DNA from: Flaviramulus multivorans
GTDB lineage: Bacteria; Bacteroidota; Bacteroidia; Flavobacteriales; Flavobacteriaceae
Reading direction: 5' to 3'
Length of the DNA: 64,000 nt
Assembly (NCBI RefSeq): GCF_021728415.1
Contig: NZ_JAKKDV010000001.1
Span: 787,977 to 851,976 of the forward strand
The position numbers and the translations under genes were made by a program. This document shows, one piece after another, positions 36,716-50,260 of this stretch; position 1 is the first letter of the stretch, and the number at the start of each line of letters is the position of its first letter. Below the pieces are notes generated by a model. That model made no database searches and had not been told where the DNA came from. It saw nothing but the letters and a program-made list of their open reading frames with translations.

Positions 36716-37576
36716 TTAAGGTGCTTTGTGGGTTCTTACAATGGCTTGCTCGTTTTTCCAATCAATCCATTTTTGTCCCTTCATTTTACGCATTACATTG
36801 TCAAAATTGCGCATAATTAAAATGTTGTAAATAGCTTTACTAAAGTTTTTAGGATTTCTGGCAATAGCCCGTAAACTCATTGAAAACCCTGGCGTAATAT
36901 ACCGCATATAATGCCAATAGCCTTCGGGCATATACAAAACCTCACCATGGTTGAGCTCGGTTTGGTAACCTTTAGCTTTTTTAAGCATGGGCCATTTTTC
37001 AAAATCAGGATTGTTAAAATCTATATCTTCTCGGGTAATTAACGAATGCGGAATTTTGTATAAGTATTTGTTTTGGTTTTGGTCAAACAAAATAACTTGC
37101 TTTTTACCTTCAAAATGAAAATGAAAAATATTAGCCAAATCAATATCGTAGTGCATAAAAGTATACGAATCCCGACCACCAAAAAACAGCATCGGAATCC
37201 CTTTCAAAAGGCGCAATCCAAAATCAGGAAACATAAAATCCTTTTGTAGCTCGGGTAATTCTTTAATCGCATTCCATAAAAAAATGCGATACCTTGTTGG
37301 TTCGCGCTTCAACAAATCTATATAATCAGCCAACTTCATTTTAGCATGTGGCTCGTTAAAACCATCTTTATAATCCACTGGACGATCGTCATAAAGCGGA
37401 ATAGTAATATCTCCGCCAATGGTTTTCATATAGTCTAAATTCCATTTGCTATACGCAGGCCAATCTTCAATAAAGCGCTCAATAACCACAGGTTTTTGCG
37501 GCTTAAAATAGTGCTTTAAAAAGTCCTCTTTAGTTATTGTTTTAACGCGAGGTATGTCTTGTAAGTTTAACAACAA
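36716..37576 (-). CDS. JmjC/cupin_8-type Fe(II)/2-oxoglutarate oxygenase-like protein
   Basis: 286 residues without signal peptide, so cytoplasmic. The fold is the FIH/JmjC double-stranded beta-helix: PQKPVVIERFIEDWPAYSKW near the N-terminus, the iron-binding HxD in FMHYDIDLANIFHFHFEGKK, and the distal His in LYMPEGYWHYM. The Lys of FEGKKQVILF is a candidate 2-oxoglutarate-binding residue. Members hydroxylate amino-acid side chains in proteins or act on small molecules; in flavobacteria the target is unknown. The gene is single. It starts 60 bases from the right-hand palindromic element. Confidence 0.88.
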   Translation of the reverse strand: MLLNLQDIPRVKTITKEDFLKHYFKPQKPVVIERFIEDWPAYSKWNLDYMKTIGGDITIPLYDDRPVDYKDGFNEPHAKMKLADYIDLLKREPTRYRIFLWNAIKELPELQKDFMFPDFGLRLLKGIPMLFFGGRDSYTFMHYDIDLANIFHFHFEGKKQVILFDQNQNKYLYKIPHSLITREDIDFNNPDFEKWPMLKKAKGYQTELNHGEVLYMPEGYWHYMRYITPGFSMSLRAIARNPKNFSKAIYNILIMRNFDNVMRKMKGQKWIDWKNEQAIVRTHKAP

Positions 37577-37635
37577 GGCTATAAAATTTTAATGGCCAAA
37601 GTTAATAAAACGTTACCAAATGTAAAATAGTATTT

Positions 37636-37766
37636 GGGCGTTACCCTTTGGGTCGGGCTATGTGTTTCAAGTCCTCGTCGTAACTCACTTTGGGCTTTTC
37701 ACTTCAAATGCGTAGCATTCACGATTTCCTTGATTTAAAAATAAATCCATGAGTAATCCCTAACGC
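37636..37766. repeat. REP-like intergenic element with GGGCGTTA/TAACGC ends
   Basis: A 131-base stretch starting GGGCGTTACCC and ending AATCCCTAACGC, with GCGTTA (37638-37643) and TAACGC (37761-37766) as terminal inverted repeats. Its composition (GGGTCGGGCT, TCAAGTCCTCGTCG) is GC-richer than the surrounding intergenic DNA. It resembles a repeat family I recall from many Bacteroidota genomes, with ends like GGGCG...TCGGGCT...AATCCCTAACGC; this copy looks decayed in the middle. It lies between the JmjC gene and the DUF3784 gene. Confidence 0.6.
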
Positions 37767-37774
37767 GAAAAATG

Positions 37775-38083
37775 TTACCTATTAATTTTATACTTATTGG
37801 AGTTCGAAATAATAATTAAATAAGGTACACCACAAATTATTGCAACAAAAAAAGCGTAAGTTTCTATGTTTGGTAGGTTTAGCCATTTTGATAAAATAAA
37901 GCCTATAATTATAACAAATGCCATTGCAAACATAGTATTCCTAAAAACCGTTGCAACACCTTCAATATCGTACTTTTCTTTTTCTTCTTTAGGCATGGTA
38001 TTATAACCAGCTATTAAGAAGTAGAGTTTACCATGCTTAATTAAAATGCCAAGAATAATAAATATAAAGGCAACAACTATCAT
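37775..38083 (-). CDS. DUF3784-family small membrane protein
   Basis: 102 residues with three membrane helices (1-15, ~50-65, ~74-92). The segment HGKLYFLIAGYNTMPKEEKEKYD between the first two is the DUF3784 signature. The family is of unknown function and common as a small inner-membrane protein. It starts 7 bases after the bioB stop, so it is probably read through from the biotin operon, with no evident role in biotin synthesis. Confidence 0.85.
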   Translation of the reverse strand: MIVVAFIFIILGILIKHGKLYFLIAGYNTMPKEEKEKYDIEGVATVFRNTMFAMAFVIIIGFILSKWLNLPNIETYAFFVAIICGVPYLIIISNSNKYKINR

Positions 38084-38089
38084 TATAAT

Positions 38090-39184
38090 TTACTTAACTG
38101 CTTTAGCTTTTTGTTTAGCCGCTTCGTTACGTTCAATAGTATGCTCGGGCCTTGTCCATTTAGGTTTTTCACCTAAAGGATGCAATTGAGATTCGCTTGC
38201 TTCAACCGTTTTAGGTTGCATCTTTTTTATAAAAGGTTTTTGCGGATTTAACCCAAGCAACTCAAACATTTTCATGTCTTCATTTACATCGGGGTTTGGA
38301 GTAGTCAATAATTTATCACCCGCAAAAATAGAATTTGCACCAGCAAAAAAGCACATCGCTTGTCCTTCACGCGTCATTTCTGTTCTACCAGCACTTAAGC
38401 GCACTTGGGTTTCTGGCATGACGATACGGGTTGTGGCAACCATACGTATCATTTCCCAAATAGAAACAGGTTCTTGGTCCTCTAATGGCGTTCCTTCAAC
38501 AGCAACCAAGGCATTAATGGGTACCGATTCTGGCTGTGGATTTAAAGTAGCAAGAGCTACAAGCATACCTGCACGGTCTTCTATTTTTTCTCCCATACCT
38601 ATAATACCACCACTACAAACGGTAACATTTGTTTTACGTACGTTATCAATCGTTTCTAAGCGGTCCTCAAAACCACGTGTCGAAATCACTTCTTTATAAT
38701 ATTCTTCTGATGAATCTAAATTATGGTTGTAAGCATACAAACCAGCTTCGGCTAAACGTTTTGCTTGATTTTCTGTTATCATACCTAAGGTACAACATAC
38801 TTCCATATCAAGTTTATTAATGGTACGTACCATTTCTAAAACTTGGTCAAACTCTTCACCATCTTTTACATTTCTCCATGCAGCACCCATACAAACGCGC
38901 GAACTTCCACTCGATTTGGCTCGTAAGGCTTGGGCTTTTACTTGTTGCACACTCATTAAATCATTGCCTTCAATATTGGTGTGATAACGGGCTGCTTGCG
39001 GACAATACCCACAATCTTCTGGACAACCACCGGTTTTAATAGACAACAATGTGCTTACCTGCACGGTGTTTGGGTCGTGATGTTTACGATGTACCGTGGC
39101 TGCTTCGTAAAGCAGCTCCATTAAAGGCTTGTTGTATATATTTAGAATCTCTTCTTTAGTCCAATTGTGTTTTGTCTCGCTCAT
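38090..39184 (-). CDS. bioB: Biotin synthase BioB
   Basis: 364-residue radical-SAM enzyme that inserts sulfur into dethiobiotin. The SAM-cluster motif is GGCPEDCGYCPQA (CxxxCxxC). Other conserved parts are SRVCMGAAWRN, CCTLGM, AYNHNLDSSEEYY, CSGGIIGMGE and RLSAGRTEM with the [2Fe-2S] ligand Arg region. The last ~35 residues (KMQPKTVEASESQLHPLGE...AAKQKAKAVK) are a charged tail beyond the usual core. It follows the ketosynthase gene by 50 bases in the minus-strand bio run and precedes DUF3784 by 6 bases. Confidence 0.97.
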   Translation of the reverse strand: MSETKHNWTKEEILNIYNKPLMELLYEAATVHRKHHDPNTVQVSTLLSIKTGGCPEDCGYCPQAARYHTNIEGNDLMSVQQVKAQALRAKSSGSSRVCMGAAWRNVKDGEEFDQVLEMVRTINKLDMEVCCTLGMITENQAKRLAEAGLYAYNHNLDSSEEYYKEVISTRGFEDRLETIDNVRKTNVTVCSGGIIGMGEKIEDRAGMLVALATLNPQPESVPINALVAVEGTPLEDQEPVSIWEMIRMVATTRIVMPETQVRLSAGRTEMTREGQAMCFFAGANSIFAGDKLLTTPNPDVNEDMKMFELLGLNPQKPFIKKMQPKTVEASESQLHPLGEKPKWTRPEHTIERNEAAKQKAKAVK

Positions 39185-39234
39185 GTATCTGGTAGTTTGT
39201 TAAAATCAAAAATACTAATTATAAAGATATACTT

Positions 39235-40389
39235 TTACTTTTTACGTAATAATATAGAAACGGCATTACCTCCAAAACCTACGGCATTAACCATAATGTT
39301 TTTAATACTATCTGGTGTTTTTTGGTTTTCTATGTAAGGAACCCCAATAAATTTTTGGTGTTGCAGCATCAAAACGGCCAATTCAATACTTAGTGCACCC
39401 GATGCTCCAAACGTATGCCCAATTTTCCATTTATTGGTTGTTAGTGCAGGCATATTTTTAAAAAGAGTTTTAATGGCTTTATGTTCAGATAAGTCGCCTT
39501 TTATAGTTCCTGGAGCATGCATAACAATAATATCAACATCGTTAGGATTTGTATCGCCTAATGCCATTTGCATAGACTTTTGAAAACATTTAGCATCTTT
39601 TGAGATGGAAATGTTATGTTCTAAAATTTCGGTGGCGTAACCAATGCCAACTATAGTGGCTAATGCATTTTTCGGTTCGCCAGCTTCTAAGCAAATCATA
39701 GAAGCACCTTCGCCTAAAACCATAGTGTTATGTTTTTTGTTGAGGTCTAATGCACGACAAGGGTAGCTTTGGTTGTAATCAGCATATATTTTTAAAGCCT
39801 TCATTTGCGCAATGGTAAAAGGTGTTAACGGTGCTTCGCTACCACCAACCAAAAACCTTTTGCACATACCAGCATTTATCCAGGCAATCCCATTTAATAG
39901 GGCATGTAAAGCTGTAGAACAGGTTATAGAATGACTTATTTCAGGGCCTTGGGTTTGTAAATCGTGTGCTACCCATGATGATATGTTACCCAAGGTAGTT
40001 GTTGGCGATGTTAATGTTTTAGCTTTTTGACTTATAACAAAGTCTTTATGATATTTTTCAAAAAGATGCGTTGCACCTCTTGAAGACCCTATATTTATGC
40101 CGAAATTGTCAGAGCCATTCCAAAGGGCTTGCTTAACAGCCTGCCTAGATGCATAAATAGCATATAAAACAGTATCATCTAGAGATTTATATTTGCTTTC
40201 GGATTGTCTTAATACTTCAATGTCATGCTTAGCTTTTGCAGGAATCTCAGCTACTAAAACATTTCCATTTTGAAATGATTTTTCAGTAATACAATGCGTA
40301 TTGTTTTGATAGCTTTCCCAAGCTTTTTCTAAAGTAGTGCCTAAAGGGGAAATAGAAACAACAGCGGTTATGGAGATTGGTTTTTGCAA
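39235..40389 (-). CDS. Beta-ketoacyl synthase within the biotin operon
   Basis: 384-residue thiolase-fold condensing enzyme of the FabF type, with all three catalytic residues: Cys157 (ITCSTALHALL), His291 (VMHAPGT) and His325 (GHTFGASGALSIE). It is shorter and more divergent than FabF of fatty-acid synthesis (~415 residues). It sits between bioA (22 bases upstream) and bioB (50 bases downstream), so it is transcribed with biotin genes. No bioC or bioH is in the window. A role in making the pimeloyl-thioester precursor is the obvious inference; similarity to chain-length factors or to polyketide enzymes is the alternative. Confidence 0.88.
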   Translation of the reverse strand: MQKPISITAVVSISPLGTTLEKAWESYQNNTHCITEKSFQNGNVLVAEIPAKAKHDIEVLRQSESKYKSLDDTVLYAIYASRQAVKQALWNGSDNFGINIGSSRGATHLFEKYHKDFVISQKAKTLTSPTTTLGNISSWVAHDLQTQGPEISHSITCSTALHALLNGIAWINAGMCKRFLVGGSEAPLTPFTIAQMKALKIYADYNQSYPCRALDLNKKHNTMVLGEGASMICLEAGEPKNALATIVGIGYATEILEHNISISKDAKCFQKSMQMALGDTNPNDVDIIVMHAPGTIKGDLSEHKAIKTLFKNMPALTTNKWKIGHTFGASGALSIELAVLMLQHQKFIGVPYIENQKTPDSIKNIMVNAVGFGGNAVSILLRKK

Positions 40390-40410
40390 AAGTTGGTTTT
40401 GAATGCAAAG

Positions 40411-41676
40411 TTATACTATTTCTAAAGCATCTTCAATAACTGAATAAACTTTCTCTAATTGTTTTTTTGTAATTACATAAGGTGCTTGAATGTAAATAGT
40501 ATTTCCTAAAGGCCTTAAGAACACACCATTATCCATAAAAAATTTAAATAGTTTGTCGCGCAAATTTCCATAACGCTCCATTTCTATATTTAAATCTAAA
40601 GCAAAAATGATTCCTGTTTGCCTAATAGATTTTACTTTGGGGTGTTTTTTAATATAATTTCCGAACTTTTGATGTGAGCTTATAATTTCTTGAATACTAT
40701 TTTGAATATTTTCAGATTGTAATAACTCTATACTCGCCAAAGCAGCTGTACAGGCAAGTGGGTTTGCTGAATAAGTGTGTCCGTGAAAAAGTCCCTTGCT
40801 TATATCATCACTATAAAAAGCATCATATATTTTTTGGGAACAAGTCGTTAATGCCATAGGCAATAAACCTCCTGTTAATGCTTTACTCAAGCAGATAATG
40901 TCTGGTTGGGTATCCATATAAAGGGATGCAAAATGTTTTCCCGTTTTACCAAAACCAGTCATAACTTCATCAGCTACCGTAATAATTTGGTGTTCTTTAC
41001 AAAACATTAAAACAGCGTTTAAATCTTGGGCGTCGTGCATTTTCATAGCAGCAGCACCTTGCACTAATGGCTCGTAAACAAACCCCGCAACCTTACTTGT
41101 GGATACAATATCCTTTAAAGCATTTAAAATAGCGTCTAAATTTTTGCTATTCGGAACAGGGATGCGTTTTACTTCTAAAAAGAATTCCTCAAAGGGACCG
41201 TTATAAACTGATAATCCTGATACACTCATAGCTCCAAAGGTGTCACCATGAAATCCATCTTCAAAAGCAATTAAGGTATTTCGTTTTTCACCATTATTAA
41301 AATGATATTGCAACGCCATTTTAATACCAATTTCTACGCTGGTTGAACCATTATCACTAAAGAAAATTTTATTTTGATTTTTTGGCAGAATTTTAATGAG
41401 TGATTCGCTTAGTTTAATAGCAGGTTCGTGGGTGAATCCACTAAAAACCACTTGGTCTAGCTGTTTCATTTGCGCAGAAACCTGACTGGTAATATATGCA
41501 TTACAATGCCCGTACATGCAAGTGTACCAGGATGCAATGGCATCGATATATTCGTTTCCGTAATCATCATATAAAATACATCCTTTGGCTTTGGTTATAG
41601 CAGTAGTTTCCGGGTGCAGTTTGTGTTGCGTAAGCGGATGCCAAAGATGTTTTTTATCGCGTTCTTGTAAACTCAT
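40411..41676 (-). CDS. bioA: Adenosylmethionine-8-amino-7-oxononanoate aminotransferase BioA
   Basis: 421-residue class III aminotransferase that makes 7,8-diaminopelargonate using SAM as amino donor. The start RDKKHLWHPLTQHKLHPET is the BioA signature, with ASWYTCMYGHCNAYI, GSTSVEIGIKMALQYH, FEDGFHGDTFGAMSVSG, the PLP-lysine segment CLSKALTGGLLPMALTT and LFHGHTYSANPLACTAALAS. It overlaps bioD by 4 bases (ATGA), a common coupling in this operon, and is followed by the ketosynthase gene. Confidence 0.96.
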   Translation of the reverse strand: MSLQERDKKHLWHPLTQHKLHPETTAITKAKGCILYDDYGNEYIDAIASWYTCMYGHCNAYITSQVSAQMKQLDQVVFSGFTHEPAIKLSESLIKILPKNQNKIFFSDNGSTSVEIGIKMALQYHFNNGEKRNTLIAFEDGFHGDTFGAMSVSGLSVYNGPFEEFFLEVKRIPVPNSKNLDAILNALKDIVSTSKVAGFVYEPLVQGAAAMKMHDAQDLNAVLMFCKEHQIITVADEVMTGFGKTGKHFASLYMDTQPDIICLSKALTGGLLPMALTTCSQKIYDAFYSDDISKGLFHGHTYSANPLACTAALASIELLQSENIQNSIQEIISSHQKFGNYIKKHPKVKSIRQTGIIFALDLNIEMERYGNLRDKLFKFFMDNGVFLRPLGNTIYIQAPYVITKKQLEKVYSVIEDALEIV

Positions 41677-42287
41677 AATTTGTTTCTAAACATTTCAGCA
41701 TATTCCTTTATTACATTTCTGTCAAAATAAGGTTCTTCATCAATACGTCCTATAACTGTAACATTGGTCATTTTTTTGATGATATCTTCAGTCGATTTAT
41801 GCTCATTACCACTAAAAATAACCGATACATCAAACCCCTTTTCTTTTAAAGTGTTTATTGTTAAAAGAGAGTGATTAATACTTCCCAAATAATGCCTTGA
41901 CACTACAATAACTCTATAATTAGGTTTTATTAAATCTAGAACAGTTTGCGTATCATTTAAAGGAACTAATAGGCCGCCAGCACCTTCAATAACCAAATGA
42001 TTTTTAGTGCTTGGAACTTTAATTTTTTTTAAATCTATTTTAATACCGTCAATGTTCGCAGCCGCATGTGGACTCATGGGTGTATGCAATGCATAACTAT
42101 TTGGGTGAAACTTGGAGTTGCTATTTGAGATGAATCGTTCAACTTTTTTGGTATCACAGTTTTCCAAATCTCCAGCTTGAACTGGTTTCCAATAGTCGGC
42201 TTCTAATGCTTCGGTTATTATGGCGGAAGCCACAGTTTTTCCTACGTCCGTTGAGATGCCTGTTATAAAGTAAATTTTCTGATCCAT
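41673..42287 (-). CDS. bioD: Dethiobiotin synthetase BioD
   Basis: About 204 residues from the internal ATG (MDQKIYFITGISTDVGKTVA); an ATG four codons earlier would overlap bioF. The P-loop GISTDVGKT and KPVQAGD, plus VIEGAGGLLVPLN, are the ATP and carbamate-site motifs of BioD. The enzyme closes the ureido ring of dethiobiotin. The C-terminal part is shorter than in E. coli (225 residues). It overlaps bioA by 4 bases downstream and starts 2 bases from the bioF stop. Confidence 0.94.
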   Translation of the reverse strand: MDQKIYFITGISTDVGKTVASAIITEALEADYWKPVQAGDLENCDTKKVERFISNSNSKFHPNSYALHTPMSPHAAANIDGIKIDLKKIKVPSTKNHLVIEGAGGLLVPLNDTQTVLDLIKPNYRVIVVSRHYLGSINHSLLTINTLKEKGFDVSVIFSGNEHKSTEDIIKKMTNVTVIGRIDEEPYFDRNVIKEYAEMFRNKL

Positions 42288-42288
42288 A

Positions 42289-43419
42289 TCAAGAAACAAA
42301 GGTAGTAAGTAACTCTAAAACTTTTGATATTTCTTGTTCCGAATTGTAACCATGCAAACAAAAGCGCAAACGTTCTTGACCAACGGGAACTGTAGGCGAT
42401 AAAATGGGTTTTACATCAAAGCCGTGGTCTTGAAGATTTTTTGATATTGTTTTTACCTTTTCGTTTCCTGAAATTATACAGCTTTGAATCGCCGAATTAC
42501 TTTCAATAAATGTGTGGTCAAGTTTATTTTTAACCATTTCACTTTTAAAAAATGAAATGTTTTCGTGTAGCTTGTTTTTATTGGAATTTTCAATTAATTG
42601 ATGATAAGCAGTATGTATTGTTGCTAAACTATGAGGTGGCAACGCTGTGGTATATATAAAGCTACGTGCAAAATTAACTAAATAATGCTTTAATTCTTCA
42701 CTTCCAAGAATAGCAGCACCATGGCAACCTAAGGCTTTACCAAAGGTTACGATACGCGCAAAAACAATATGTTCTAAATTTAAATCTTGAACTAACCCCG
42801 CACCACGTTCTCCAAAAACACCTATAGCATGTGCCTCATCAATTACTAAAAAGGCATTGTTTTTTTTACTTATTTCTGCAATTGCTGTTAAATCGGGAGA
42901 ATCGCCATCCATAGAGAACACGGACTCTGTTATAATATACACGTTATCATAAGGCAAACGATTTAGCATTTCGTTGAGGCTTTCTAAATCGTTGTGCTTA
43001 AACTTACAGGCTTTTGCATTGCTTAAAGAAATCCCATCACGAATTGAGGCATGAATATATTCATCATATAGAATAATATCTCCACGTTGTGGTACGCATG
43101 AAAAAAAGCCAACATTAGCGTCGTACCCCGAATTAAATATTAAAGCAGACTCACTTTTATGAAAGCTTGAAATCATACTTTCCACGATGTTAAATAATGG
43201 ATGATTACCAGAAAGTAAACGCGAGCCAGTTGCTCCATTTTCGGTGATATTATGACCAACTAAAAACTTATGGGCTTCATTAAAAATGAGTTCAGATTTT
43301 GAAAACCCTAAATAATCATTCGATGAAAAGTCGATTAAATACGTATGCGTTTTAAGTTCTCGTAAGGCATTGCTTGCCTTGCGATTTTCAAGTTTTTGTA
43401 ATGGCTTTTTAGGGAACAT
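42289..43419 (-). CDS. bioF: 8-amino-7-oxononanoate synthase BioF
   Basis: 376 residues from the ATG at 43417-43419; a TTG five codons upstream overlaps a TATTTG promoter-like stretch and is rejected. It is a PLP enzyme of the alpha-oxoamine synthase family, with SSNDYLGFS, NGATGSRLLSGNHPL, FNSGYDANVGFFS, DEAHAIGVFGERGAG, the PLP-lysine region FGKALGCHGAAILG and FIYTTALPP. It condenses pimeloyl-thioester with alanine. It is the first gene of the minus-strand biotin run; the next gene, bioD, follows with almost no gap. Confidence 0.94.
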   Translation of the reverse strand: MFPKKPLQKLENRKASNALRELKTHTYLIDFSSNDYLGFSKSELIFNEAHKFLVGHNITENGATGSRLLSGNHPLFNIVESMISSFHKSESALIFNSGYDANVGFFSCVPQRGDIILYDEYIHASIRDGISLSNAKACKFKHNDLESLNEMLNRLPYDNVYIITESVFSMDGDSPDLTAIAEISKKNNAFLVIDEAHAIGVFGERGAGLVQDLNLEHIVFARIVTFGKALGCHGAAILGSEELKHYLVNFARSFIYTTALPPHSLATIHTAYHQLIENSNKNKLHENISFFKSEMVKNKLDHTFIESNSAIQSCIISGNEKVKTISKNLQDHGFDVKPILSPTVPVGQERLRFCLHGYNSEQEISKVLELLTTFVS

Positions 43420-43473
43420 TGGGTAAAGATACAAATAGCAATTAGCTTTTTAAAATATCTTTTTTTAATAAAA

Positions 43474-43525
43474 AATTATTGTTATTCAATAATTTTATTA
43501 TATTTGTTATCGTTAAACAATAATT
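43474..43525 (+). promoter_or_regulatory. Promoter with flanking 10-base inverted repeat (Xre/DUF2975 operon)
   Basis: The -7 box TATATTTG (43499-43506) has TTG at 43479-43481, 17 bases upstream. It is bracketed by a perfect 10-base inverted repeat AATTATTGTT (43474-43483) and AACAATAATT (43516-43525). The symmetric element around a promoter in front of an operon encoding an Xre-family repressor suggests autoregulation. Confidence 0.65.
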
Positions 43526-43530
43526 AATTT

Positions 43531-44052
43531 ATGAAAACAAATCAAGTTTTAAAAACAATGAAGGTTTTATCTTGGATCATTTTTATTGGTTTATGTATTA
43601 AATCTGGAGCAATGTTAATAGTGTTTTTAGTTAGCTTAGTTGTGAACAACGTGGTTTCAACAGATTTATATCAAGGGTTGGACTTCATAGAACTATATAA
43701 TTTTTCTAAGAGCCACTATAGTGTTTTTGTAATACTAATTATTTTAATATCAATGATAAAGGCATATCTCTTTTATTTAGTGGTTAGAATATTTTTTAAA
43801 ATTAACTTTAATAAACCGTTTAGCTTAAACGTTGCTAACCTCATATGTAAAATTAGCCATGTTGCCTTTAGTATAGGTGTTGTAGCCTTCGTTGCAAATA
43901 TTTATAACACTTGGCTAATAAGTAAAGATGCTGTTACTCGATTGCATTGGCCTATACAAGAGTATTTATTTATGGCTGGAATAATATTTATTATTGCGTT
44001 TGTTTTTAAACGTGGTATCGAAATCCAATCAGAGAATGACCTAACTATTTAA
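43531..44052 (+). CDS. DUF2975-family membrane protein (first of two)
   Basis: 173 residues with four predicted membrane helices (about 11-36, 60-85, 104-128 and 142-160). The short charged C-terminus KRGIEIQSENDLTI ends in the NDLTI/NELTI motif characteristic of DUF2975, also present in the next gene. The family is nearly always encoded next to a small Xre-type helix-turn-helix protein, as here. Function is unknown; by analogy it could be a membrane sensor or a target controlled by the regulator. First gene of the three-gene group. Confidence 0.85.
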   Translation: MKTNQVLKTMKVLSWIIFIGLCIKSGAMLIVFLVSLVVNNVVSTDLYQGLDFIELYNFSKSHYSVFVILIILISMIKAYLFYLVVRIFFKINFNKPFSLNVANLICKISHVAFSIGVVAFVANIYNTWLISKDAVTRLHWPIQEYLFMAGIIFIIAFVFKRGIEIQSENDLTI

Positions 44053-44143
44053 AAATGAAAGGGGTATGAGTAATTCTTGATGCTAAAGAGATGTTTAATG
44101 GCGAATTACATCTGATTTATTAAAAACGATAAAATTTATACAA

Positions 44144-44668
44144 ATGAAAGACAATACCAACATATTAATCATTATCACTTGGGGCATATTATTAGCCTCA
44201 GTTTCGGTGTTGCTCAATGATATGAGAGAATTTGATTTTAATCAATTTAAAGAATTTCAAAATTGGGCAAAAACGGCAAATAAGAAAGAGTCTTGGTTTA
44301 CGTCAAAAAACGCGATTCAATGGAGTTATTACGCCATTAGTGCTGGGTTGTTTTTTTGGAGGGGCTATCTTATTTATGGGTTTTCTTATTTTTTATCTAT
44401 TCTTAAAGAAATTGAAAATGGAAACTATTTCAGCGATAAGAATATTAAATATTTTAAAAAGATTGGAAATATCTTTATTTGGTATACTGTTAATGTTTTG
44501 ATTTTAAGATTTCTTTTGGCGGCAATTGGTAAATCTACTTTTAACTTTTTTAACGAGCTCAAAGCGGAGTTTACCTTTTTAATTCCAGTAGGTTTAGCAT
44601 TTTTTATTCTTGCTGAAATTTTTAAACGCGCTAAGGACACTGAAAAAGAAAACGAATTAACCATATAA
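44144..44668 (+). CDS. DUF2975-family membrane protein (second of two)
   Basis: 174 residues, four hydrophobic helices (about 5-24, 62-83, 108-127, 143-160) with a polar loop after the first (NDMREFDFNQFKEFQNWAK), and a C-terminal KDTEKENELTI that matches the end of the first DUF2975 protein. The two paralogs are otherwise quite different, so the duplication is not recent. Its stop lies 2 bases before the Xre gene start, showing co-expression. The 91-base gap before it contains no promoter I would trust. Function unknown. Confidence 0.82.
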   Translation: MKDNTNILIIITWGILLASVSVLLNDMREFDFNQFKEFQNWAKTANKKESWFTSKNAIQWSYYAISAGLFFWRGYLIYGFSYFLSILKEIENGNYFSDKNIKYFKKIGNIFIWYTVNVLILRFLLAAIGKSTFNFFNELKAEFTFLIPVGLAFFILAEIFKRAKDTEKENELTI

Positions 44669-45970: not shown

Positions 45971-47188
45971 TTACCGCCTCCTATTTGCCAAAAGTGGTGG
46001 CGGTTCGCCTGTAAAAGGGTTCCATCTACTAATGCTTTTGGCTTCCATTCCTGCCGCATTTATTACTGCTCTATCTCCATAACGTTCGCGCATTTTATCT
46101 ATAGCTTCACTTAAATGCAGTTGTTTTTCATTGTCTTCAAATAAATTAATTTGATGTCCGCCCTCAACCAAATGGCTAAATTTCACACCAATAAGTCTTA
46201 CCAATAAACGCCTGTTGTACAATTTTCTGTATAAATCTAATACCACAGGAATAATGGTATGATCCATAGCACTATACGGAATGCGCTGCTGTTGTGTATA
46301 CGTTTGAAAATCAGAATACCTAATTTTAAAGGTAACACAAGCGGTTAATTTATTACCTCGACGCAATTGGTAGGCTAAATTTTCGGCCATAGCTATAATA
46401 ATGCCTTTTAATTTGGCAACATCGGTGGTGTCTTTATTAAACGTACGCTCTGTTGAAATAGATTTGCGTTCATGGTATTGAACCACAGGACTATTATCTA
46501 TCCCGTTTGCCTTTTTCCAAATGCTTAAACCATTTTGTCCAAGTACCCGATGCATGAGTTCCATGGGCATTTCTTGTACAGTTTGAATACGTTTTACACC
46601 CAAATCGCATAAGGCTTTATAGGTAACATTGCCAACCATAGGTATTTTTTTTACTGAAAGTGGTGCTAAAAAAGGTTTTTCGGTACCCGAAAGAATACGT
46701 ATTTCATTATTAGGTTTGGCTTCGCCTGTGGCAATTTTTGAAACGGTTTTGTTAATAGACAACCCAAACGAGATGGGTAATCCAGTTTCTTTTATAATAC
46801 GTTGGCGTAATTCCGAAGCCAGTTTATGGCAACCAAAAAATTTATCCATACCAGTAAGATCTATGTAAAATTCATCGACCGATGTTTTTTCATATAAAGG
46901 CACGGTTTCTTTGATAACATCGGTTACGTTTTGTGAGAACTTGGTATAAACACCAGAGTTTCCTCTAAGTATTATCGCTTCGGGACACAGTTGTTTTGCT
47001 AAACGCATAGGCATTGCAGAATGTATGCCAAATGTTCTTGCTTCATAACTACATGATGCAACAACACCTCTATCAGAAGTGCCGCCAATAAGCACGGGTT
47101 TTCCGTTAAGGCGACTATCGAGCAAACGCTCGCAGGACACAAAAAAGGTGTCTAAATCCATATGAACAATAGAACGTTCGTAACTCAT
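45971..47188 (-). CDS. dinB: DNA polymerase IV (DinB, Y-family)
   Basis: 405 residues. It has the Y-family palm motifs VHMDLDTFFVSCERL (first Asp) and TSVDEFYIDLTGMD (Asp-Glu catalytic pair), then GLSINKTVSKIATGEAKPN and KIPMVGNVTYKALCDLGV (helix-hairpin-helix). The little-finger domain ends with KFSHLVEGGHQINLF, after which ~50 residues extend beyond the core. It makes translesion copies with low fidelity. It lies 12 bases downstream of the DnaE polymerase gene on the same strand, forming an SOS-like mutagenesis unit. Confidence 0.95.
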   Translation of the reverse strand: MSYERSIVHMDLDTFFVSCERLLDSRLNGKPVLIGGTSDRGVVASCSYEARTFGIHSAMPMRLAKQLCPEAIILRGNSGVYTKFSQNVTDVIKETVPLYEKTSVDEFYIDLTGMDKFFGCHKLASELRQRIIKETGLPISFGLSINKTVSKIATGEAKPNNEIRILSGTEKPFLAPLSVKKIPMVGNVTYKALCDLGVKRIQTVQEMPMELMHRVLGQNGLSIWKKANGIDNSPVVQYHERKSISTERTFNKDTTDVAKLKGIIIAMAENLAYQLRRGNKLTACVTFKIRYSDFQTYTQQQRIPYSAMDHTIIPVVLDLYRKLYNRRLLVRLIGVKFSHLVEGGHQINLFEDNEKQLHLSEAIDKMRERYGDRAVINAAGMEAKSISRWNPFTGEPPPLLANRRR

Positions 47189-47200
47189 AACTTAAACGTA

Positions 47201-50200
47201 TTACAAAGTTTCTGGAGTATGCCTCATTATTTTTGGAGACATGGGAGATAGTTGATTTGATCTATGGTCTGCAAAGCTTTTTTTATTCTGAAAAGTGCTA
47301 TTTAAAGAGTTTACAGCATAACGCGGATCTTCAACTATTGCAGAACGCTCCATAGCCGAAACTTCAATAGTCACACAATCAAACTCTACCATTATTTTCC
47401 CTGTAATGCTGTAAATACCTTTTCCACGAAACGGATATTTTGCTGCCACAGGCGGAAAGTGAACGGTATCAATAAAATTACCGTCGTAGTCTAAGAATGT
47501 ACCAAAGTGCATACTTTTCCCGTTAGAGGTTCTGGTGTTTTTTGTGGCTACCAAATAGCCTTCAATAGTAATGGTTTTATTTTGTAAATGGATTAAATGT
47601 TCTGCTCGCATGGGGTTTGATGTTGGAGTTTGCAGTAAATGAAACGGATTACATAATGGAAAACCTAATAGCTCCATTTCATCAAAAGCATTTTCTAAGT
47701 CGGTGCTTGATAATCGGGGTGTTTTGTAGTTTATACGCTCGGTTTTAAACAAGGTTATTACATGTTCTTGAATAACTGTTTTGCTAATTTTAAGATGTCC
47801 TTCCCAAAGCAATTCCCGTTTATTAATTCCTGTAAACCTAAACGCATTAATTTTTATAAGTATTGAAATTTGTTCTATGGAAATAGGGACACGTTCAATA
47901 AAATCATCTAGACTTTTAAAAAGTCCGTTACTAATGCGTTCTTCAATAATTTTAGCAATGGTTTTTGCTTCTAAAGCATGTAAGAACATAAAGCCTAAAT
48001 AAATAGTTTTCTTTTTAATAATAGCCATATTGAAGCTGTGGTTTATACATGGTGCTTCAATAATACCTCCATGCATTCTGGCTTCGTGTACATAGAGTTC
48101 GGTTCTATAAAAGCCACCAAAATTATTAATGGTAGCGACCATATATTCCAAAGGATAATAGGCTTTTAAAAACAGACTTTGGTAGCTTTCTACAGCATAA
48201 GAGGCGGAGTGGCCTTTTGCAAAGGCATAACCAGCAAAGCTTTCAATTTGGCGCCACACATCTTCGGTTATTGTTTCGGGCTCTCCTTTTTGTTTGCAAT
48301 TATCAAAAAAAAGTTGCTTTACTTGTAAAAATTCTTCACGCGATCTAAATTTACCCGACATCCCTCTGCGCAGTTTATCAGCTTCACCTAAAGTTAATCC
48401 ACCAAAAATATGCGCAACTTTAATAACATCCTCTTGATACACCATAACACCATACGTTTCTGGCATAATTTTTAATAAAATAGGGTGCGCTTCTTTAATG
48501 CGTTCAGGATAACGGTAGCGTAAAATATACTCGCGCATCATTCCAGATTTTGCAACACCAGGACGAATAATAGAACTGGCTGCCACCAAGCCCAAATATG
48601 TATCAACGCGTAATTTTTTAAGTAGCATACGCATGGCGGGAGACTCTACATAAAAGCAACCAATAGCTTTGGCATTTCGCAGCAGGTGTTTAATATTTTC
48701 GTCTTCTTTAAAGCGTTTAATATCGTGAATATCAACAGGCTTTTTTTTAGGATGATTATAGGCTATAATATCAACAGCATCTTTAATTTTTCCTAACCCA
48801 CGTTGGCTTAAGATATCGAATTTATACAATCCGATATCCTCAGCAACAACCATATCAAAATGTGTGGTGGGAAAGTTTTTTGGGGGCAAAAAAGTGGCAG
48901 TATAATAATGAATGGGTTTTTCTGAGATAATAATACCACTAGCATGAATACCTAAATAGTTTGGAAACCCTTGAATGTATTCGCTGTATTTAATAACCAA
49001 TTGTGATAATTTATCGAGCTGATGGATTTGATATTTGCCTCGAGTAAGTATGTCCATTTCAGATTTAGGCAATCCAAAAACTTTTCCTAACTCTCTTACC
49101 GAAGCCTTAAACTTAAAGGTGTTATAAACCGTTAAAAGTGCAGTGTTTTTAAAAGTTTTGAAAATGAATTTGGTAATATCATCGCGGTCTGTCCATGAAA
49201 AATCAATATCAAAATCAGGCGGATTTTGGCGAAACAAATTAATAAATCGTTCAAAATACAAATCCAGTTCTATAGGGTCTACATCGGTAATGCGAAGCAA
49301 ATAAGCCACAATGCTATTGGCACCACTACCACGACCAACGTAGAAATAGCCTTTGCTTCGGGCATATTTTAAAATGCACCAATTAATAAGAAAGTACGAT
49401 ACAAAGCCTTTTTCGTTAATAATTTCTAGCTCTTTTTTAATACGGTTGTAAATAACATCATTAGGGGTTTTATAACGATACGGTAAACCTTCATAAGTTA
49501 ATTTTTTAAGCAGCGCATAATCTGAATCTTCGCTTTCAGTATACGATTTTTGGTTGTTAGGAACTTCTTGCGAAAAATCGAATTCAATTTGGCAATCCTC
49601 TAAAACAGATTGCGTGTTTTTAATAAGCTGTGGAAATTCTTCATAGGTTTCACACAACTCATTATATGGTAACATCATATCGTTGGGGTCGCCTTCTTCG
49701 GTTTTAGAAAGCTTACTTAGCAAGGTGTTGTTATCAATGGCTCGTAATAATCGGTGGGTATTAAAACCTTTTTTATTTTGAAAAGAAACGGTTTTTAAAA
49801 CCACCAGTTTATGTTGCAATTTATTCCATTTTGAAAACTTAAGAGCGTTAAGGTCTTTGGGTTTAATACCTAAAAACTCGTTGTCTTTAAGTGTGTAATC
49901 ATTTTGATTTTTATACGGATAAATAACAAAAGTGTCATCTAGTTGAGGTGCTTTTTCAGGGATTTTTAAATGACTATCGTGTAAAAATGTAGACAGATAG
50001 CTATTAATGTTTTGAAAACCATTGTTGTTTTTTGCTAATAAAACAAATTGTTGTTGCGCACCATTTCTAAAATCGACACCAAGCACAGGCTTAATTTCAT
50101 ATTTTTTAGAAAGTCGTACAAAATCTAAACTGGCCGATGTGTTATTAATATCGGTTAATGCCAATGTATTAGCGCCATTGGCAGATGCTATGGCAAGTAG

Positions 50201-50260
50201 CTGCTTTGGGGCAATGGTGCCATAACGCAAACTATAGTATGTGTGACAATTTAAATACAT
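47201..50260 (-). CDS. dnaE2: DnaE-type DNA polymerase III alpha subunit, short error-prone-like form
   Basis: 1019 residues, well below the ~1400-1500 of replicative DnaE in flavobacteria, and lacking the long C-terminal tail. An N-terminal PHP domain opens MYLNCHTYYSLRYGTIAPKQ with ALTDINN in place of ALTDHGN, so its metal site looks degenerate. The catalytic palm has PPDFDIDFSWTDRDD, plus GRGSGANSIVAYLL, YQEDVIKVAH and FAKGHSASYAVESYQS. A helix-hairpin-helix and an OB-fold (KTITIEGYLVATKNTR) follow. The partner DinB and the divergent LexA-like regulator mark it as the DNA-damage form (DnaE2/ImuC-like); the name is inferred from length and context. Confidence 0.9.
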   Translation of the reverse strand: MYLNCHTYYSLRYGTIAPKQLLAIASANGANTLALTDINNTSASLDFVRLSKKYEIKPVLGVDFRNGAQQQFVLLAKNNNGFQNINSYLSTFLHDSHLKIPEKAPQLDDTFVIYPYKNQNDYTLKDNEFLGIKPKDLNALKFSKWNKLQHKLVVLKTVSFQNKKGFNTHRLLRAIDNNTLLSKLSKTEEGDPNDMMLPYNELCETYEEFPQLIKNTQSVLEDCQIEFDFSQEVPNNQKSYTESEDSDYALLKKLTYEGLPYRYKTPNDVIYNRIKKELEIINEKGFVSYFLINWCILKYARSKGYFYVGRGSGANSIVAYLLRITDVDPIELDLYFERFINLFRQNPPDFDIDFSWTDRDDITKFIFKTFKNTALLTVYNTFKFKASVRELGKVFGLPKSEMDILTRGKYQIHQLDKLSQLVIKYSEYIQGFPNYLGIHASGIIISEKPIHYYTATFLPPKNFPTTHFDMVVAEDIGLYKFDILSQRGLGKIKDAVDIIAYNHPKKKPVDIHDIKRFKEDENIKHLLRNAKAIGCFYVESPAMRMLLKKLRVDTYLGLVAASSIIRPGVAKSGMMREYILRYRYPERIKEAHPILLKIMPETYGVMVYQEDVIKVAHIFGGLTLGEADKLRRGMSGKFRSREEFLQVKQLFFDNCKQKGEPETITEDVWRQIESFAGYAFAKGHSASYAVESYQSLFLKAYYPLEYMVATINNFGGFYRTELYVHEARMHGGIIEAPCINHSFNMAIIKKKTIYLGFMFLHALEAKTIAKIIEERISNGLFKSLDDFIERVPISIEQISILIKINAFRFTGINKRELLWEGHLKISKTVIQEHVITLFKTERINYKTPRLSSTDLENAFDEMELLGFPLCNPFHLLQTPTSNPMRAEHLIHLQNKTITIEGYLVATKNTRTSNGKSMHFGTFLDYDGNFIDTVHFPPVAAKYPFRGKGIYSITGKIMVEFDCVTIEVSAMERSAIVEDPRYAVNSLNSTFQNKKSFADHRSNQLSPMSPKIMRHTPETL

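Follow-up and report, generated by a model that had tools for sequence, protein, structure and literature searches.

A FabF-family ketosynthase (KAS) is encoded inside the biotin operon of Flaviramulus multivorans, within a 64,000-nucleotide stretch of its genome that was analysed as a whole (the window), and comparison with related genomes argues that such a dedicated biotin-operon KAS is real and widespread in Bacteroidota. A preliminary description of this DNA had suggested that the enzyme carries out a dedicated elongation step in the making of the pimeloyl moiety, as part of a variant early pathway, and the comparative sequence tests reported here support this suggestion. The evidence for the elongation reading consists of the co-occurrence of KAS with bioB, its linkage to bio genes through operon rearrangement, its separate group in the tree and its charged acyl pocket; further evidence is that no BioC over the cut-off, no BioW (31 genomes) and no BioE-like gene (17 genomes) was found. 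The link of KAS to the biotin pathway is well supported, and a role of the enzyme in pimeloyl synthesis is highly probable.

Organization of the biotin operon

The window belongs to a genome of 3.28 Mb that is 99.99% complete. In the ORF list of the window the genes lie in the order bioF-bioD-bioA-KAS-bioB, all on the minus strand, between 43434 and 38090 (Table 1). Between neighbouring ORFs as listed there are overlaps of 11 and 4 bp and gaps of 21 and 50 bp, and because successive ORFs on the same strand overlap or lie no more than 50 bp apart, the five genes likely form one operon. Co-transcription of the KAS gene with bioF, bioD, bioA and bioB had been stated in the preliminary description; the shared strand and the close spacing agree with it, while the co-transcription itself stands as a prediction. 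A scan of the operon for promoters (sigma-70-type) and terminators gave nothing above chance, and an Rfam scan of 37000-44500 gave zero matches. The next gene after bioB encodes a DUF3784 protein.

Table 1. Genes of the biotin operon and two KAS codons, with their positions in the window
Feature	Position	Strand	Description
KAS (FabF-family ketosynthase of biotin operon)	39235-40389	-	384 aa, TTG start; PF00109 and PF02801 above cut-offs
bioF, 8-amino-7-oxononanoate synthase	42289-43434	-	TIGR00858 342.6 bits, below cut-off 426.45; best of 14 families
bioD, dethiobiotin synthase	41673-42299	-	TIGR00347 116.2 bits, cut-off 83.3 passed
bioA, aminotransferase	40411-41676	-	TIGR00508 537.8 bits, cut-off 405 passed
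bioB, biotin synthase	38090-39184	-	TIGR00433 407 bits, cut-off 225 passed
R104 codon AGA	40078-40080	-	aligns with acyl-pocket gate Ile108 of E. coli FabF
C157 (nucleophile) codon TGT	39919-39921	-	aligns with FabF C163; Cys in 115/115

Elsewhere in the window (45971-50260, minus strand), a 405-aa Y-family DNA polymerase-like ORF adjoins a 1019-aa DnaE-like ORF, both named by eye.

Family assignment and catalytic residues of the KAS

The KAS protein matched the Pfam domains PF00109 with 80.7 bits and PF02801 with 58.0 bits (cut-off 20.8 in each case), and it scored 150.8 bits against NCBIfam fabF (TIGR03150), missing the curated cut-off of 493.75. As both domains were matched and the fabF cut-off was missed, we regard it as a KAS II relative and not as a typical FabF. 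In the alignment with E. coli FabF, whose residue numbers follow the crystal structures, C157, H291, H325 and K320 of KAS are equivalent to C163, H303, H340 and K335, which agrees with the initial view of a FabF-like enzyme with a full triad, and the gating Phe400 is kept as F372. Both domains together with the Cys-His-His-Lys set place the protein in the elongating KAS I/II superfamily; it falls outside the BioZ family, having KAS I/II domains only and His at both His positions.

In a tree computed from 62 KAS, a branch with 100/100 support separates all 41 biotin-operon KAS from the 21 others, which are E. coli FabF, Bacteroidota FabF with further paralogs, and viral KAS. The tree is unrooted, and the group is a clade if the root falls on the other side; long branches inside it make the inner order unsure, and the protein of locus L090 sits near the other KAS. 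The closest named relatives of the window KAS came from Flaviramulus (80% identity) and Gaetbulibacter (78%), in a comparison from which records of the same genome may be omitted. Viral and plasmid collections contained distant KAS only, with 22-30% identity among the matches listed, and these served as negatives. That KAS is an operon duplicate of the housekeeping FabF was also considered and was ruled out by the tree split and by a separate FabF (L001) found elsewhere on the KAS contig of the window genome.

An AlphaFold2 model built with 39 orthologs reached a mean pLDDT of 87.5 and a pTM of 0.90 for the monomer without ligand; its confidence was lower in two stretches, residues 101-140 and 151-160 (block means 57-77), where R104 and C157 lie. 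When this model was used in a fold search, FabF structures were the best matches. The predicted structure and the fold search thus confirm the FabF fold only, and the pocket argument given below is based on the alignment.

Residues of the acyl pocket

I108 and F202 are described as gating residues of the FabF acyl pocket (PMC7138838). A total of 115 group members, picked by similarity to the window KAS (>100 bits) and independently of the Arg residue, were compared with 33 other KAS. At the Ile108 position of FabF, the alignment placed an Arg (R104) in 115/115 group members and in 0/33 other KAS, where Ile, Val, Thr, Leu, Gln, Met or Gly is found and E. coli FabB shows a gap. Ala162 of FabF is replaced by Thr in every group member and is Ala in 33/33 of the others, and Val134 is replaced by Ser throughout the group (115/115), a residue also seen in 2/33 other KAS. 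Phe133 is changed to Ser, Ala or Thr in 112 of the 115 members, and Phe202 to Met in 107 of them; the Val134 and Phe133 positions presumably enter the pocket from the partner chain. In addition, T305 of the FabF active-site loop is Pro in 115/115 members (P293 in the window KAS) and Thr in 33/33 other KAS. Outside the catalytic H291, K320 and H325, R104 and H153 were the only basic positions conserved in 95% or more of the members. As judged from the alignment, the acyl pocket of the biotin KAS is shifted from hydrophobic to charged and polar.

Distribution of KAS and bioB

Among the window genome and 30 relatives (31 genomes, the first set), a KAS ortholog was found in 19, including 14 of the 19 genomes of the same family (Flavobacteriaceae). 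The orthologs scored 257 bits or more, and the next match, at 95 bits, was a different KAS. All 19 KAS genomes carried bioB (E <= 1e-60), as did G022, in which a BioE-like gene of 207 aa precedes bioF-bioD-bioB-bioA. This gene was named from its position, its size and the bioEFD grouping, not by comparison with the published sequence; the grouping itself has been published (PMC12915131). At the same locus (L057 3820-6005), a divergent 506-aa ORF stands at the expected BioL place. The strict bioB limit missed a divergent bioB in G003 (31.8% identical, L062), whose biotin operon has a BioC by NCBIfam (203.8 and 204.1 bits in two scorings, cut-off 184.95). The biotin operons in the 31 genomes therefore number at least 21, not 20, and other KAS-free genomes may hide more; those seen carry KAS in 19 cases, a BioE-like gene in one and BioC in one. 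For the association of KAS with bioB in this set, the Fisher p was 1.5e-6 with the G003 correction and 1.4e-7 without it, and all Fisher p-values given here are too small because the genomes share ancestry.

A class-wide sample of 247 genomes, the window genome and G022 among them, was searched as well, with at most 7, 8 and 10 candidates scored per genome for KAS, bioB and BioC, respectively. KAS was found in 17 genomes, all with bioB, and bioB in 141 (Fisher p 5.4e-5, too optimistic for related genomes). The 17 consist of 16 at E <= 1e-30 and G057 from a profile search, whose KAS adjoins bioA (L104); at a stricter limit the profile search gave 15 KAS genomes, with G111 and G234 missed. BioC above the cut-off occurred in 3/247 genomes and a BioE-like gene in 11/247, 10 of them with bioB, and there was no overlap between the KAS, BioC and BioE-like genome sets. 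At the thresholds used, 111 of the 141 bioB genomes had none of the three, so that KAS would be one route among several, and the remaining bioB genomes may use routes outside KAS, BioC and the BioE-like gene. When 20 bioB loci were read, 17 showed none of the three, and KAS, BioC and the BioE-like gene were present in one locus each; in eight of the 20, bioB was alone within the stretch. One genome, G130, is a congener of three KAS carriers and has a lone distant bioB (62%) in its stretch (L113 6972-7961) and no KAS; it is perhaps a dethiobiotin scavenger.

Linkage of KAS to bio genes

The arrangement of KAS with bio genes recurs in relatives far above chance. At least one bio gene was present within the fetched stretch (flank of 8 kb or less) in 79 of 80 named KAS loci, L165 being the sole exception; the 80 were the best of 505 relatives and came mostly from Flavobacteriaceae. 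With bioF matches below 38% identity left out, these loci had bioA in 77 cases, bioD in 77, bioF in 75 and bioB in 63, and no BioC, BioE-like or BioG-position gene was found in them (one reference each, E <= 1e-10). A clear bio gene was seen in the stretch at 17/19 KAS loci of the first set, G016 and G020 being without one. Among 15 KAS loci of the class set, 10 had a clear bio gene, three had only a bioF-family gene (30-42% identity) and two, in G254 and G167, had none; bioB was located elsewhere in all four of these genomes.

The gene orders vary and include bioA-KAS-bioB, bioB-F-D-A-KAS and bioF/KAS pairs. KAS adjoins bioB in L042 and L050 though bioF, bioA and bioD lie outside the stretch, it adjoins bioD in L052, and it closes bioB-F-D-A-KAS in other families (L082-L084). 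A shared pathway would keep such linkage through operon rearrangement, as is seen for KAS and the bio genes.

Additional genes were observed around these operons. Downstream of bioB in the window there is a Cupin_8/JmjC-like gene (36716-37576, minus strand), and such genes near the operon form a cluster of 12 in the 19 first-set loci and occur in 39/80 named loci. In 8/19 first-set loci (e.g. L035 3347-3745), bioF and bioD are separated by a small gene coding for about 125-169 aa, which is absent from the window; the one member that was run matched DUF2007 with 20.8 bits, below the cut-off of 25.7. Three genes are inserted between bioF and bioD in L078-L080, from genomes of one genus, and in L078 one of them encodes a TraB-family protein, one a sigma factor, and the third has no Pfam match.

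Search for other early biotin routes

No bioC had been noticed in the window by the preliminary description, which was borne out, and the genome search that it had proposed as a check also remained below the family cut-off, the best match in the window genome reaching 55.0 bits (cut-off 184.95). Above this cut-off, BioC was found in 0/19 KAS genomes of the first set and in 0/17 of the class sample, where up to 10 candidates each were scored; all 31 genomes carry methyltransferases with weak BioC similarity. BioW (PF03744) was found in 0/31 genomes, with B. subtilis and M. jannaschii positive as controls. With the G022 gene, chosen by operon position and size, as the query, no BioE-like gene was detected in the window genome at E <= 1e-15 or in the 17 KAS genomes of the class sample. 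BioH is one alpha/beta hydrolase among many, and esterases of its type are hard to recognise.

The window genome encodes three KAS III proteins, two of which pass the fabH cut-off and the third of which is below it. Against NF004623 PRK05963, a family guessed to be BioZ-type by length only, they scored 237.1, 232.4 and 126 bits (cut-off 437). In a comparison of two of them with PDB chains, FabH structures gave better matches than 6kue, the structure of BioZ, for both.

We also ran 30 neighbour ORFs against Pfam, and no ACP or FabZ partner beside KAS was found among them. The only SDR reductase came from L121, a KAS-free locus, and other neighbours were menB-like, a DAHP synthase, transporters and a sigma factor. 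Three further proteins were each seen in a single genome: a GDSL hydrolase (L088), a 4HBT thioesterase (L052) and a DUF3050 protein (L087). The DUF3050 protein (L087 5185-7151, G254) has a weak Haem_oxygenas_2 match and overlaps the start of the listed KAS ORF; no BioE-like match was found in this genome. At L121 (7100-11653, G129), the SDR reductase and a 338-aa ORF lie between bioF and bioA, with no KAS, BioC or BioE-like match, and this insert is possibly another early biotin route. In two Bacteroidia genomes (L109 6297-7058 and L120 5570-6316), an ORF of about 250 aa lies between bioB and bioF; the two are 45% identical, have no Pfam match, are not BioE-like and look secreted by eye.

Proposed mechanism and alternative explanations

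E. coli methylates malonyl-ACP, and this cap is thought to be needed given the hydrophobic active sites of fatty acid enzymes. The argument from hydrophobic active sites is repeated for the methyl cap in PMC10102598. We consider it probable, from the pocket residues, that the KAS accepts a primer with a free omega-carboxylate and so replaces BioC and BioH. In this scheme the primer is a short dicarboxylic acyl chain whose free omega-carboxylate would be bound by R104, which has Ser/Thr neighbours; the first round would most likely start from malonyl-ACP and the second from glutaryl-ACP. Malonyl-ACP would also be the extender, decarboxylated by the His-His pair. Each cycle would be finished by the reductases and the dehydratase of general FAS II to give pimeloyl-ACP, which would then be taken by BioF. 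If the free carboxylate is held by KAS, a methyl ester of the E. coli type would no longer be needed. The BioZ product is carried to pimeloyl-ACP by E. coli FabG, FabA and FabI (PMC7645780), and since these enzymes process it, KAS would be the step that most needs selection for the charged end.

Tentatively, we propose a one-gene, methyl-ester-free entry in which malonyl-ACP primes its own elongation and two rounds (C3 to C5 to C7) lead to pimeloyl-ACP; much of Flavobacteriaceae and scattered other Bacteroidota would use it. Within the free-carboxylate reading, a malonyl start is favoured over a glutaryl start. Priming with malonyl-ACP requires transfer without decarboxylation, which is not known of a KAS II and is a point against the malonyl start. 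We infer the substrate, the number of rounds, the role of R104 and the need of KAS for biotin synthesis.

Several observations count against the main reading, among them the KAS loci without a bio gene in the stretch (G016, G020, G254, G167, L165). These would also suit a KAS that serves another pathway, for example of a lipid or a secondary metabolite, and is merely carried in the operon. We regard this as very unlikely: four of these genomes (G016, G020, G254, G167) still have bioB elsewhere, no bioB-free KAS genome was found in the two genome sets (31; 247), and the KAS-bio linkage outlasts repeated operon rearrangement. The main reading also has to accommodate the 111 class-sample bioB genomes that have neither KAS nor BioC nor a BioE-like gene, including G130, a congener of three KAS genomes with bioB and no KAS, the Pro of all group members in place of the active-site loop residue T305, the three KAS III proteins kept in the window genome and the hydrolase-type neighbours, GDSL (L088) and 4HBT (L052), each with a single distant carrier, which could be used by an esterase route. 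Such hydrolases beside or near KAS would fit a conventional methyl-ester pathway whose BioC and esterase escaped recognition, in which KAS merely elongates methyl-capped primers, as would the weak BioC-like methyltransferases of all 31 genomes (up to 55.0 bits in the window genome) and the difficulty of recognising BioH-type esterases. However, the BioC cut-off was reached in 0/19 and 0/17 KAS genomes (the latter with at most 10 candidates per genome), and a neutral methyl ester needs no gate arginine, E. coli elongating it with ordinary FAS II enzymes; a methyl-ester pathway thus seems improbable here.

A special case inside the free-carboxylate reading is that KAS is the equivalent of BioZ, taking a ready-made glutaryl thioester (CoA or ACP), derived from lysine or other catabolism, through one round to 3-oxopimeloyl-ACP. 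The gate arginine would suit this short dicarboxylic primer equally well, and BioZ performs the same chemistry with a KAS III fold (PMC7645780). On the other hand, the BioZ authors state in that paper that there is no evidence for glutaryl-ACP in cells, and the window operon has no further gene able to activate glutarate. From the knowledge of the family, KAS II normally uses ACP-bound primers. A glutaryl start from catabolism is the main variant within the free-carboxylate reading; we regard it as unlikely, and as less likely than the malonyl start.

Significance and comparison with known systems

Flavobacteria are reported to belong to nature's primary biotin producers (PMC9561691). For the making of the pimelate half in BioC-free Flavobacteria, KAS offers one gene and one residue. 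If the proposal is true, a second kind of condensing enzyme would have solved the free-carboxylate problem, by means like those proposed for BioZ; a gene group that family searches rank as weak FabF relatives would gain a function, and biotin production strains could be equipped with a compact part. Among the matches listed in the openly licensed literature, none dealt with a KAS of FabF type within biotin operons of Bacteroidota, and neither the one-gene version in Bacteroidota nor the gate arginine was described.

The window KAS resembles E. coli FabF and FabB in its fold, its catalytic residues and the gating Phe400. It differs from E. coli FabF in the changes of Ile108 to Arg, Val134 to Ser, Ala162 to Thr and Phe202 to Met, and in its separate tree group. 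The BioE route of Elizabethkingia is likewise reported as BioC-free in Bacteroidota (PMC12915131), but BioE is described there as a diiron oxygenase, which cuts long acyl chains, unlike KAS.

Like BioZ, the window KAS would be a condensing enzyme that sits in a biotin cluster and makes BioC and BioH dispensable, and it would share with BioZ an Arg with Ser for the primer carboxylate; in BioZ, S84, R147 and S287 are proposed to neutralise the carboxylate of the glutaryl primer (PMC8024396). However, BioZ is a FabH-type KAS III with a Cys-His-Asn set and a CoA primer, whereas the window KAS is of the KAS I/II type with Cys-His-His. As the two belong to different KAS families, a likeness of their substrates would be convergent.

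The closest precedent is the biotin cluster DVU2558-DVU2565 of D. vulgaris, which includes the FabF-like DVU2563; transposon fitness data show that this cluster is needed without biotin (PMC10102598, which refers to Rodionov 2004 and to Lin and Cronan 2011). The genome is given there as lacking bioC and bioH, and the authors propose an elongation without methyl esters and suggest less hydrophobic active sites; they report clusters of this type from a few phyla of anaerobes. Because a cluster with a FabF-like KAS and without bioC and bioH has already been described, the present proposal is a variant of a known idea. Both systems have a FabF-like KAS in a bio cluster and lack bioC. Only the D. 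vulgaris cluster has its own acyl carrier protein and reductase-like and FabZ-like genes, with a needed nitroreductase-like gene elsewhere; in the window operon, by contrast, the KAS is the sole FAS-like gene and the host is one of the Bacteroidota. We therefore do not file the window operon under the D. vulgaris type, as the ACP, reductase-like and FabZ-like genes are missing. It may nevertheless work like the D. vulgaris system, and the one-gene entry possibly evolved separately from BioZ and is perhaps common to Desulfovibrio.
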